Positions 10,102 through 18,860 of a stretch of 64,000 nucleotides of DNA are shown here, one piece after another (the first letter of the stretch is position 1; each line of letters begins with the position of its first letter). The notes beneath the pieces were generated by a model, which worked only from the letters and a program-made list of their open reading frames with translations, was not told the origin of the DNA and did no database searches. Made by a program: the position numbers and the translations under genes. The DNA comes from Thermus scotoductus DSM 8553 (GTDB taxonomy: Bacteria; Deinococcota; Deinococci; Deinococcales; Thermaceae). The DNA lies in the NCBI RefSeq assembly GCF_000381045.1, contig NZ_KB905735.1:1-64000 (forward strand), written 5' to 3'.

Positions 10102-12540
10102 ATGCGGGGGCTTACCTCACAGGAGGCGCAAAAACGCTTCGTAGAATACGGCCCCAACGCCCTTCCGGAAAATCCCTCTGAACCCCTTTGGCAACGGTTC
10201 CTGCACCAGTTTCAAAGCCCTCTCATCTACATCCTCCTCTTTGCTTTGGCGGTGGACCTGGGCCTTTGGCTCTATGAGGGAGCCCAGGGGCTTCCCCTGG
10301 AGGCCTTGGCCATTCTGGCCATCCTGATCCTCAACGCTACCCTGGGTACCCTGCAGGAGAAGCGCTCCGAGGAGGCCCTTAGGCGTCTTAAAGCCCTGGC
10401 GGAGCCCATGGCCTGGGTCCTCCGAGATGGTCGCTTCCAGCACCTCCCCAGCCGGGAGATCGTGCCCGGGGATGTGGTGCGCCTGGAGGCAGGGGACCGC
10501 ATACCGGCAGATGGGGTGCTCCTGGAGGCCAGCGGGGTCTTGGTGGATGAAAGCCTCCTTACCGGGGAAAGCGTTCCGGTGGAGAAGAGGGTAGGGGACG
10601 AGGTCTTTTCCGGCACCCTGTTGGTGCGGGGAAGGGCCCTAATGGAGGTAAGCCGTACCGGCCTAAGGAGCGCCATGGGCCGCATCGCGGGGCTTCTTTC
10701 GGAGATGGAGGAGGAAAAAACTCCGCTGGAGCGGCGCCTCGAGGCCTTTGGCCATCGGGTGGCCCGCTGGGTGCTGGTCCTCGCCGCGGCCCTGGTGGTT
10801 CTGGGCTTTCTGGTGGAGGGCCTTTCCGGCAAGGTCCTCCTCTTCGCCGTGGCCCTGGCGGTGGCGGCGGTGCCTGAGGGGCTTCCTGCGGTCCTCACCC
10901 TGGCCTTGGCCCTGGGGGTAGAGCGGATGGCCCGCCGCAAGGCGGTGGTGCGGCGCCTTGCTGCGGTGGAGGCCTTGGGGAGCGTCACCGTTATCGCCAC
11001 CGACAAGACGGGTACCCTCACGGAGAACCGCATGGAGGTGCAAAAGGTGGTGGGGCCGGACCCCCAAAGGGCCCTTCTCGCCATGGTCCTTTGCAACGAC
11101 GCCGACCTGGAAACCGGGGCGGGGGACCCCTTGGAGATAGGCCTTTTGCGTTATGCAGCGGAGCACCTGGACGTGAGGCGGGTCCGCCAAGAAAACCCCA
11201 GGCTTTCCGAAAGACCCTTTGACAGCGCTTGGAAGTACATGCGGGTTACCACGCCCCAGGGTAGCTTCCTCAAAGGGGCTCCCGAGGCCCTTATCCCTCG
11301 CCTTGCTCTAAGCCAAGAGGACAAGGCTTCCCTTTTGGAACAGGCGGAAGCCTATGCAAAGGAGGGCTTTCGGGTGCTGGCCCTAGCCCATGGTGAGGGT
11401 GAGAAGGAAGAGGAGTTAAGTTTTCTTGGCTTTGTCCTCCTCCTGGATCCTCCCCGCCCGGAGGTGCCGGAGGCGGTGGCCCAGGTTTTGAAGGCGGGGG
11501 TCAGGGTGGTGATGGTGACGGGGGACCATCCGGCTACTGCCTTGGCCATCGCCCGTAAGGTGGGCATTCCTGCCGAAGTGGTGGCCACCGGGGAGGAGAT
11601 AGGGGAGCTCTCCGATGAGGAGCTTCTTGAGGTAGACGTCTTTGCCCGGGTCAAGCCGGAAGACAAGCTGAGAATCGTGGAGGCTTTCCAGAAGGCTGGA
11701 GAGGTAGTGGCCATGACCGGGGATGGGGTGAACGATGCCCCGGCCCTCAAGCGGGCGGACGTGGGGGTGGCCATGGGGCAAAGGGGATCGGACGTTTCCC
11801 GGGAGGTGGCGGACCTGGTTCTCATGGATGATAACTTCGCCACCATCGTGGCGGCCATTGAGGAGGGGCGGAGCATCTACGAGAACATCCAGAAGTTCAT
11901 CCGCTTTCTCTTCTCCACCAACCTCTCTGAGGTCTTGGTGGTGGCCTTGGGGATGGTGTTCGCCGCCCTTTTAAACCTGAGGGACGGAGCGGGCCATTTG
12001 CTCCTTCCCCTTACCGCGGTGCAGATTCTCTGGATCAACCTGGTGACCGACGGCCTTCCTGCCCTGGCCTTGGCCTTGGACCGTAATCCCCGGGTATTGG
12101 AGCGGCCGCCCAGGCCCAAGGACAGCCCCCTTTTGGACGCCCCCTCCTTGCGGTTCATCCTCCTCACGGGAACCATCAAGGCCGCCTTTGCCTTGTTGCT
12201 TTTGGCCCTTCTGCCGGGATGGGGACGGATCCAAGCCCCTTTAAGTGCCACCGAGGTGGCGCGTACCGCCACCTTCCACTTCATGACCCTGGGCCAGCTC
12301 TTTTTTGCTTACGCTGCCCGGCACACGCACCTGATACCCCTTCCAAACCCTTACCTGCACGGGGCGGTGGCTCTGGGCATCCTGATCCAGATCCTTCTCG
12401 GCACCCTGGCCCCTGGGGTGTTGGAGGCGGTGCCGGTTCCGGTATGGGTCTGGGGATTGGTTTTGGCGCTTGCCCTCTTGGCTTGGCTCATGGCCGAAGG
12501 GGTGGACCGGTTAATATGGCGGAAGGAGGCTAGGCGATGA
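10102..12540 (+). CDS. Ca2+-type (P2A) cation-transporting P-type ATPase
   Basis: Membrane ion pump of 812 aa. It carries the actuator motif TGES, M4 [16 protein letters not shown], the phosphorylation site DKTGTLT at residues 301-307, and hinge motif [17 protein letters not shown] near 539. Residues expected for Ca2+ binding are visible: Glu in PEGLP, Asn and Glu spaced as in NLSE of M5, and the NLVTD motif of M6. This points to a Ca2+ (SERCA/PMCA-like) rather than heavy-metal or H+ pump, exporting Ca2+ from the cytosol. No metal-binding N-terminal domain. The stop overlaps the start of a decayed CBS/exchanger gene by 4 nt. Confidence 0.9.
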
Positions 12541-12950
12541 AGGCAAGGGATGCCATGACCGGCCCCGTGGTGAGTACATCCCGAAACCACCCTGGCAGAG
12601 GTGGCCCGGCTTATGTTGGAAAAGGGTTGGTCACCACCTTGCCCGAGGCCACCGTGACCCTGGCCGCCGCCCGCCTGGGGGCGGTGGACCTGGCTTTGGG
12701 CAACGTGCTGGGGAGCGTCATGTTCAACACGTTTCTTCTCTCCTATGCCGATCCCCTGTTTCCTGGCCCCCTTTTGGCCCAGGTGGAGGGAAGCCACCTT
12801 TTCAGCGTCTTGGTCCTCTTGGGTATGGCGGGGACGGTGCTTACGGGGCTCATGTACTAGAGCCTGAGGAAGCTTTGGGTTTTGGCCTACGACTCCTGGG
12901 CCATCCTGGTCCTTTATCTACTGGCGGCCTCGCTGCCCCTGGTGCGGTAA
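12537..12950 (+). pseudogene. Chimeric remnant: CBS-domain gene fused by deletion to a Na+/Ca2+ exchanger tail
   Basis: The first codons read [14 protein letters not shown]. Then a one-base shift near 12580 gives PETTLAEVARLMLEKGW in another frame, a recognisable CBS-domain opening. Near 12626 the sequence switches to GLVTTLPEATVTLAAARLG followed by DLALGNVLGSVMFN, the C-terminal alpha repeat of CaCA-family cation/Ca2+ exchangers. An in-frame TAG at 12858 interrupts this, and exchanger-like hydrophobic sequence (LRKLWVLAYDSW...) continues to a stop at 12950. One deletion, one frameshift and one nonsense change together mark it as dead. It overlaps the uspA end on the other strand. Confidence 0.8.
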
Positions 12951-13375
12951 GGGACCACCAGGACCGGCTTGGGGCTACGGCGGACCACCTCCTGGGTCAC
13001 GCTACCCAAAAGCATTGCGTCCAGCCCCGTGCGCCCATGGGTGGCCATGACCAAAAGGTCGTGCTTTTCCGCCTCCTTCAGGATCACCTCTGCCGCCCGC
13101 CCCTCCGGGAGATGGGCTTCAAACCCCACCCCCATTTCCTCCGCCATGCGGGTTGCGCGGTCCAGGGCGGCTAGGCCCTCCTTCCGCATATCGTCCACCA
13201 GGGCCTGGTAATAGGGCAGGGTTTCTGGGCCTAGAAGCAGCCTGGGTCCCAGGGGCTCCAGTGCGTAAAGGAAGGCCACCTTTGCGCCCAAGGCCTTGGC
13301 CAGGCGGAGGCCTTCTTGCACCCCGGCCTCGGCAGCCGGGCTACCGTCCGTGGGTAAGAGGATGCTTTGGTACAT
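12914..13375 (-). CDS. Universal stress protein (UspA family)
   Basis: Cytosolic protein of 153 aa with the UspA fold: N-terminal SILLPTDGS strand-loop and the ATP-binding ATHGRTG...GSVTQEVVRRSPKPVLVVP signature (G-2x-G-9x-G-S/T) near residues 112-143. It probably binds ATP as a dimer and takes part in stress tolerance. It follows rnj on the same strand with 3 nt between them, so it may be co-transcribed with the RNA-decay cluster. Its last 37 nt overlap the exchanger remnant. Confidence 0.9.
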   Translation of the reverse strand: MYQSILLPTDGSPAAEAGVQEGLRLAKALGAKVAFLYALEPLGPRLLLGPETLPYYQALVDDMRKEGLAALDRATRMAEEMGVGFEAHLPEGRAAEVILKEAEKHDLLVMATHGRTGLDAMLLGSVTQEVVRRSPKPVLVVPYRTRGSEAASR

Positions 13376-17709: not shown

Positions 17710-18860
17710 TTAGGGCCTGGCCCTCCTTCCGTCAAGCAGGAAAAACAGGAGAGCCAAAAGGGCCAGACCCGCCCCCACGCCGAAGGCCAGCTCAGGCCCA
17801 TAACTTTGCCAGAGAAAGCCGAAGATCAAGCTGGCCGGCAGGAGCAAAACCCCCACCACCGTGTGGTAAAGCCCGATGGCGGTGGCCTTGGTCTCAGGGG
17901 GGACCAAGGTGGCCAAGTAGGCGCGGCTTGCCCCCTCGAAGGCGGCGGAGTACAGGGCGTAAAGAAGCAGAAACGCCACACCCCCCAAAGCCGACTGGGC
18001 AAAGGCAAAGCCCAGGTACACCAGGGCATAGAGGGCAAAACCCAAGGCCACCACCCGCCTCAGCCCAATGGCATCGGCTAAGCTCCCGAGGGGATAGGAG
18101 AGGAGGGCATATATCAGGTTGTAACCCGTGTAGGCCAAGGTTACAGCCTCCTGGGAAAGCCCGAGCTCCTTCAGGCGGAGGAGCAGGAAGGCATTGGAGG
18201 ATAGGGCCAGGGCAAAGACGCCGGAAACCAGAAGGAAGCGTCGGTAAGGGGAGGGAAGGGTACCCAGGTAGGTGATGCGGAAGGGGGAAGGCGGGGCCTT
18301 AACCCCTTGGGGCTTGGCTTCCTTTACCCAGAAGAGGGCCATGAAGGCTAGAAGGGCCGGTATGGCGGAGATCCAGAATACCCCCCGGATTCCCAGATGC
18401 GGTAGAAGGAGAAAGGCCAAAAAGGGCCCCACGGTGGCCCCCAGGGTGTCCAGGCCCCTGTGCAAGCCGTAGGCCCGGCCTAAGGCACCCCGGTCCACAC
18501 TCTCTGCCAGGAGGGCATCCCGGGGAGCGGTGCGCAAGCCCTTGCCCGTCCGGTCTAGGAAGCGGTAGAGACGTGCCCAGGGGTTTGGGCGAGGGCCAGG
18601 ATAGGGCGGAAAAGGGCGGGCAGGCCGTACCCCAAGAGAAGGAGAGGTTTTCGCTGGGCCAGGCGGTCGGAGATCCCTCCGCCCACCACCTTGAAAAGGC
18701 TGGCGGTGGCCTCGGCGATGCCTTCTACCAGCCCAAGAACACCTGCGCCTGCCCCCAGGCTGGTTAGGAGGAGGGGCAAAAGGGGATAGACCATCTCGCT
18801 GGCCACATCCATGAGGAAGCTGACCAGGCCCAGCAGGTATACCTGGGGAGGGAGTCTCAT
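17710..18860 (-). pseudogene. MFS transporter with a one-base frameshift
   Basis: Two reading frames together encode one 12-helix major facilitator protein. The first, from the ATG at 18860, contains GLVSFLMDVASEMVYPLLPL and the DRLAQRK loop. After the tetranucleotide G-run at 18580-18583 the sequence continues in another frame with YRFLDRTGKGLRTAPRDALL, the expected next MFS motif. Adding one base there restores an exact 384-codon gene. The start overlaps the stop of the cbaX-like gene (ATGA), so it belongs to the cba operon, where T. thermophilus also has a further downstream gene. It is either a recent null allele or a sequencing error in a C/G run. Confidence 0.8.

Follow-up and report, generated by a model that had tools for sequence, protein, structure and literature searches.

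Pseudogenes that arise when a deletion fuses two genes are a general class known in bacteria. The locus described here carries such a fusion directly behind a gene for a P-type ATPase, whose closest relatives of solved structure are Listeria LMCA1 (lmo0841), SPCA1 and SERCA1. It differs from LMCA1 and the SPCA and SERCA pumps in missing the curated NCBIfam cut-offs for Ca2+-ATPase equivalogs, although these models rank first (TIGR01522, 555.4 against 798.3; TIGR01116, 497.9 against 703.4), so Ca2+ is only its presumed substrate. The DKTGT and PEGL motifs are present in this protein. The second family concerned is the CaCA exchangers (PF01699; NCBIfam TIGR00367 and PRK10734), with which the intact relatives share two Na_Ca_ex stretches, whereas the locus studied here retains part of one repeat only. 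The exchanger of an intact relative lies far below the NCBIfam cut-offs (TIGR00367, 77.6 against 179.65 bits), indicating that this exchanger is a divergent CaCA protein. No report on this locus was found among article titles and the opening parts of abstracts.

The window, that is, the whole stretch of 64,000 nucleotides that was analysed, comes from Thermus scotoductus DSM 8553 (G000 below). The following features of the locus were identified in it.

10102 to 12540, plus strand: intact gene for a P-type ATPase of the type II (Ca2+-like) group, 812 aa, with Pfam E1-E2_ATPase, Cation_ATPase_C/N and Hydrolase matches over the cut-off
12537 to 12860, plus strand: open reading frame of 107 aa that starts CBS-like and ends in an exchanger tail
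12537 to 12623, plus strand: 5' remnant of a CBS-domain gene (first ~29 codons, from the alignment with seven relatives), overlapping the ATPase stop through ATGA
12573 to 12585, plus strand: interval of a 2-bp loss, missing relative to 7/7 aligned relatives
12624 to 12626, plus strand: deletion junction inside GGG; each ancestral end has a G run at or close to it, and 996 bp present in seven relatives are absent
12624 to 12950, plus strand: 3' remnant of a CaCA exchanger, from the second half of the alpha-2 repeat to the C-terminus, with the natural stop TAA at 12948-12950
12858 to 12860, plus strand: nonsense codon TAG, a Gln codon (CAG or CAA) in 7/7 aligned relatives
12914 to 13375, minus strand: intact, convergent universal stress protein (USP) gene (Pfam Usp, E 2.2e-30), overlapping the exchanger 3' end by 37 bp

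In the segment at 12537-12950, 87 bases from the start of a CBS gene are joined to ~109 codons from the end of a CaCA exchanger gene. The segment's ATG at 12537 shares ATGA with the end of the ATPase gene, and it thus lies directly behind the pump gene, as the first-pass annotation had stated. The N-terminus is CBS-like, as that annotation had also read it: it aligns with the CBS gene of relatives over the first ~29 codons, and their CBS proteins begin MKAKDAMTSPVV at the aligned start. No Pfam CBS (PF00571) match was found in the remnant ORF, because only ~29 of 149 codons survive and the domain pair is absent. From the junction on, the translation reads LVTTLPEATVTLAAARLGAVDLALGNVLGS... and residues 31-67 of the ORF match profile positions 45-81 of the 151 in Pfam Na_Ca_ex (E 2.3e-8), in agreement with the proposed join near 12626 to the C-terminal alpha repeat of an exchanger. 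Exchanger positions ~214-321 alone are left in the window, short of the two alpha repeats that characterize PF01699.

Seven Thermus relatives (G001, G002, G015, G007, G008, G022 and G009) were aligned across the locus, the comparison that the first-pass annotation had suggested. In all seven, the ATPase and convergent USP genes flank an intact CBS gene and an intact CaCA gene, and each relative has exactly 996 extra bases at the junction. The difference is accounted for by a single deletion with its left end near codon 29 of the CBS gene and its right end near codon 214 of the exchanger gene, which bears out the earlier proposal that the end of one gene and most of the next had been removed. 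This ancestral arrangement is the typical one in the genus and is represented by G001, in which an intact CBS gene of 149 aa (Pfam CBS, two stretches, E 2e-37) and an intact exchanger of 321 aa (Pfam Na_Ca_ex, two stretches, E 5.8e-25) are joined by ATGA overlaps and followed by the USP and RNase J genes. The flanking ATPase, thioredoxin-like, USP and RNase J genes are conserved. The tail shares 84-90% DNA identity with the exchangers of five relatives which, together with the 996 extra bases, shows that its likeness to an exchanger is not due to chance. In the five relatives inspected, a short G run follows an A run in the CBS gene and another lies in the exchanger just 5' of the matching bases, so the breakpoint can be placed anywhere within the G run.

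The deletion alone does not join the two frames, since 996 is a multiple of three and the CBS and exchanger genes overlap by ATGA in different frames. The 2-bp loss, whose gap the alignment with the seven relatives places after 12573 with an ambiguity to about 12585, acts as a one-base shift and places the start of the CBS gene and the exchanger tail in one reading frame, leaving a chimeric ORF of 107 codons open up to 12858. The first-pass annotation had described a one-base shift near 12580; the change of frame is real, and the lesion behind it is a loss of two bases. At 12858, where a nonsense codon had been noted, CAG is changed to TAG, after which the exchanger frame continues to its natural stop, which lies inside the 3' end of the USP gene on the opposite strand. 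The remnant therefore bears three separate lesions, namely the 996-bp deletion, the 2-bp loss and the nonsense codon.

Elsewhere in the window, a check for broken genes returned 7/47 non-intact queries against G007 and 15/54 against G008. Several of these queries look like antisense shadow ORFs, and only a gene for an MFS-type transporter (17713-18860, minus strand) was retained as broken; it has a frameshift near 18570, whereas its counterparts in G007 and G008 have an open frame of ~384 aa. The promoter scan returned 0 promoters. The terminator scan gave 8 terminator-like sequences against 4.9 (sd 2.3) in shuffles, which was not useful.

The assembly of G000 is a draft of 84 contigs, and one contig, C51 (L168), looks chimeric: its start repeats the start of contig C5 over about 904-907 bases with 98.9% identity. 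These features, together with the frameshifted MFS-type gene, leave some room for sequencing or assembly error at the locus, in which case the organism would have an intact CBS gene and exchanger that were collapsed in the draft. Against this, a PF01699 search of the G000 assembly returned only a different exchanger on C51 and the tail itself, and the missing middle and first half of the exchanger are nowhere else in the assembly. Moreover, a collapse would not typically convert a conserved Gln codon to a stop or remove 2 bp where there is no homopolymer, and both flanking genes, for the ATPase and the USP, are open. We consider such an artefact very unlikely.

The full-length exchanger on C51 (L168:2715-3671) has a counterpart with 99% identity in G058, from another genus (g4) of the same family, and, judged from sequence, may stem from contamination, misassembly or very recent transfer. 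It was considered as a compensating gene and dropped in view of this match and of the C5 duplication; as C51 looks chimeric, no second exchanger is claimed for the organism. The C51 exchanger adjoins a transposase-like ORF, and at positions 1-1557 of the same contig 74 residues from the start of rdgB (Ham1 family) are fused to an Amidase_3 domain, which again looks like a misjoin or contamination. A putative second type II ATPase is encoded on contig C43 of G000.

A short chimera kept by selection, encoding a small membrane protein that regulates the pump and is translated in coupling with the ATPase, would be expected to recur in relatives, and the first-pass annotation had named such recurrence as the result that would speak against decay. 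The chimera was sought in 27 genus genomes, including that of the window, and is absent from the 26 relatives. A 76-base query spanning the junction matches somewhere in 18/27 genomes, with a full-length match in G000 only; the rest are partial, and each match at the relatives' own loci is confined to one flank of the junction. Among the genomes sampled, continuous junction DNA occurs in G000 only, which refutes conservation of the chimera in this set. The ORF is also cut by a nonsense codon, and other species have lost the region with different remnants. What speaks for selection is the 107 codons left open from a start at ATGA, and a tail whose private changes show no nonsynonymous excess. 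Counted at sites that are uniform in the other five relatives, these changes are 9 synonymous and 5 nonsynonymous (one being the nonsense codon) in the tail, against 12 and 9 in the ATPase (Fisher p 0.74). That the counts do not show relaxed constraint is a point against the reading as decay; the comparison has low power and the locus is mosaic, and the counts are compatible with relaxed as well as unrelaxed constraint on the tail. Taken together, a selected function for the chimera is extremely improbable.

The locus is mosaic because its parts have different nearest relatives: the tail is nearest to G001 (89.7% DNA identity), and the ATPase to G007 (93.0%). Such different histories would also result if the remnant had been imported by recombination from a lineage already lacking the genes, a variant of decay by deletion and not exclusive of it. 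However, the same junction is found in no sampled genome, and mosaic ancestry predating the deletion fits the same data. Import of the remnant thus seems unlikely.

Collectively, the intact pair in relatives, the 996-bp excess in 7/7 of them, the conserved flanks, the three lesions and the lack of a junction match in 26 relatives make it very probable that the locus is a decayed operon, in which one 996-bp deletion turned the CBS and exchanger genes into a pseudogene that also bears a 2-bp loss and a nonsense codon. The intact pair was found at the locus in 14/27 genus genomes. The first-pass annotation had likewise seen a calcium-handling operon that lost its exchanger and CBS partner, and the intact pair does follow the ATPase in relatives, with a presumed role in Ca2+ transport.

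The reading as a decayed operon also draws on the rest of the genus, where decay states differ among genomes. The 27 genomes, with G000 as the one genome of its species, were scored as follows.

CBS and exchanger genes both open: 14/27 (G001, G002, G005, G007, G008, G009, G011, G012, G013, G015, G017, G019, G022, G023)
Exchanger open, CBS gene degraded or not found: 2/27 (G018, G025)
Truncated exchanger ending after ~residue 248, then unrelated sequence near a contig end: 1/27 (G006)
ATPase kept (frameshift-split in G024), exchanger lost or decayed: 8/27 (G000, G003, G004, G010, G016, G021, G024, G026)
Whole cassette absent: 1/27 (G014)
Too fragmented to score: 1/27 (G020, 65% complete)

The remnants differ among the eight losses: nothing recognisable is left in G004, exchanger positions from ~241 remain in G003, and ~60 CBS codons in G026. 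The ATPase is open and near full length in 23/27 genomes; G024 has it split by a frameshift, G005 and G014 have lost it, and G020 shows no full match. In G014 the whole ATPase-CBS-exchanger-USP block is missing between the thioredoxin-like and RNase J genes (L174, 1157-3515). G005 (L086, L175) is the reverse case, in which the ATPase is cut to two ends around an inserted sequence (part of it N) and the CBS and exchanger genes are open. No PF01699 match was found anywhere in 7/27 genus genomes, indicating that the CaCA family is dispensable.

A tree was built from the thioredoxin-like, ATPase, USP and RNase J proteins (25 rows, with G014 and G020 omitted and G006 scored as exchanger kept). On this tree the eight exchanger losses require at least 6 changes; 10/22 inner branches are well supported, and the tree may be distorted by recombination because it is built from genes of the locus. 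G000 is placed as sister to G004 with weak support (59/61), and these two genomes may therefore share an older loss.

To retrieve related loci outside the genus, the ATPase alone was used as query. A total of 79 loci were retrieved, 70 of them not from Thermus, and 48 of these 70 have at least 1500 bp on both sides. An exchanger relative (tblastn, E at most 1e-3; with Thermus proteins as queries, more distant exchangers would be missed) was detected in 13/48, belonging to Acidobacteria, Chloroflexota and Proteobacteria. All 13 are on the same strand as the ATPase at a distance of 12-796 bp, 11 downstream and 2 upstream. No exchanger relative was detected by tblastn with the Thermus queries in the remaining 35/48. 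Four loci with shorter flanks also have an exchanger, on the same strand in L118, L126 and L166 and on the opposite strand in L149. Two acidobacterial loci (L164, L165) show the Thermus-type order ATPase-CBS-exchanger outside Deinococcota. In a broader interpretation, ATPase-(CBS)-CaCA would be an unnamed two-pump Ca2+ export cassette of Deinococcota, Acidobacteriota, Chloroflexota and Proteobacteria, with the CBS protein gating the exchanger, and its parallel loss in Thermus would be adaptive in some springs and not merely tolerated. We regard this interpretation as doubtful.

The ancestral operon, as shown in relatives, was a head-to-tail array of three genes with ATGA overlaps, coding for the P-type ATPase, a protein with two CBS domains and an exchanger of a divergent CaCA type. 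In this lineage, a single illegitimate deletion of 996 bp then fused CBS codon ~29 to exchanger codon ~214; the form of the junction suggests that it probably ran from one short G run to another. The 2-bp loss and the nonsense codon were acquired as well, in whatever order. With its alpha-1 repeat gone, its alpha-2 repeat incomplete and its CBS pair missing, the remnant gives no working exchanger and yields at most a translationally coupled by-product of 107 aa. The ATPase remains open and presumably exports Ca2+ alone. ATP-driven and gradient-driven Ca2+ export would overlap in function, so that the exchanger and CBS protein may be dispensable in some habitats, and such redundancy would be the simplest cause of the repeated loss.

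The locus can be compared across the genus, with one ancestral three-gene set, at least 6 changes that broke the exchanger and a single case of the reverse, in which the pump was lost, and allows a simple test of the redundancy of ATP-driven and gradient-driven Ca2+ export. The pairing of ATPase and exchanger across phyla also hints at the function of a divergent group of CaCA proteins beyond the curated NCBIfam models. The feature in the window itself is ordinary gene decay, and the repeated loss of the gene pair across the genus is the more interesting part. Compared with bacterial deletion-fusion pseudogenes, the remnant shows the same join of a 5' truncate to a 3' truncate, with short junction homology and an additional frameshift and stop. 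It is of the same kind as these; what sets this case apart is the independent decay of one operon in several species.
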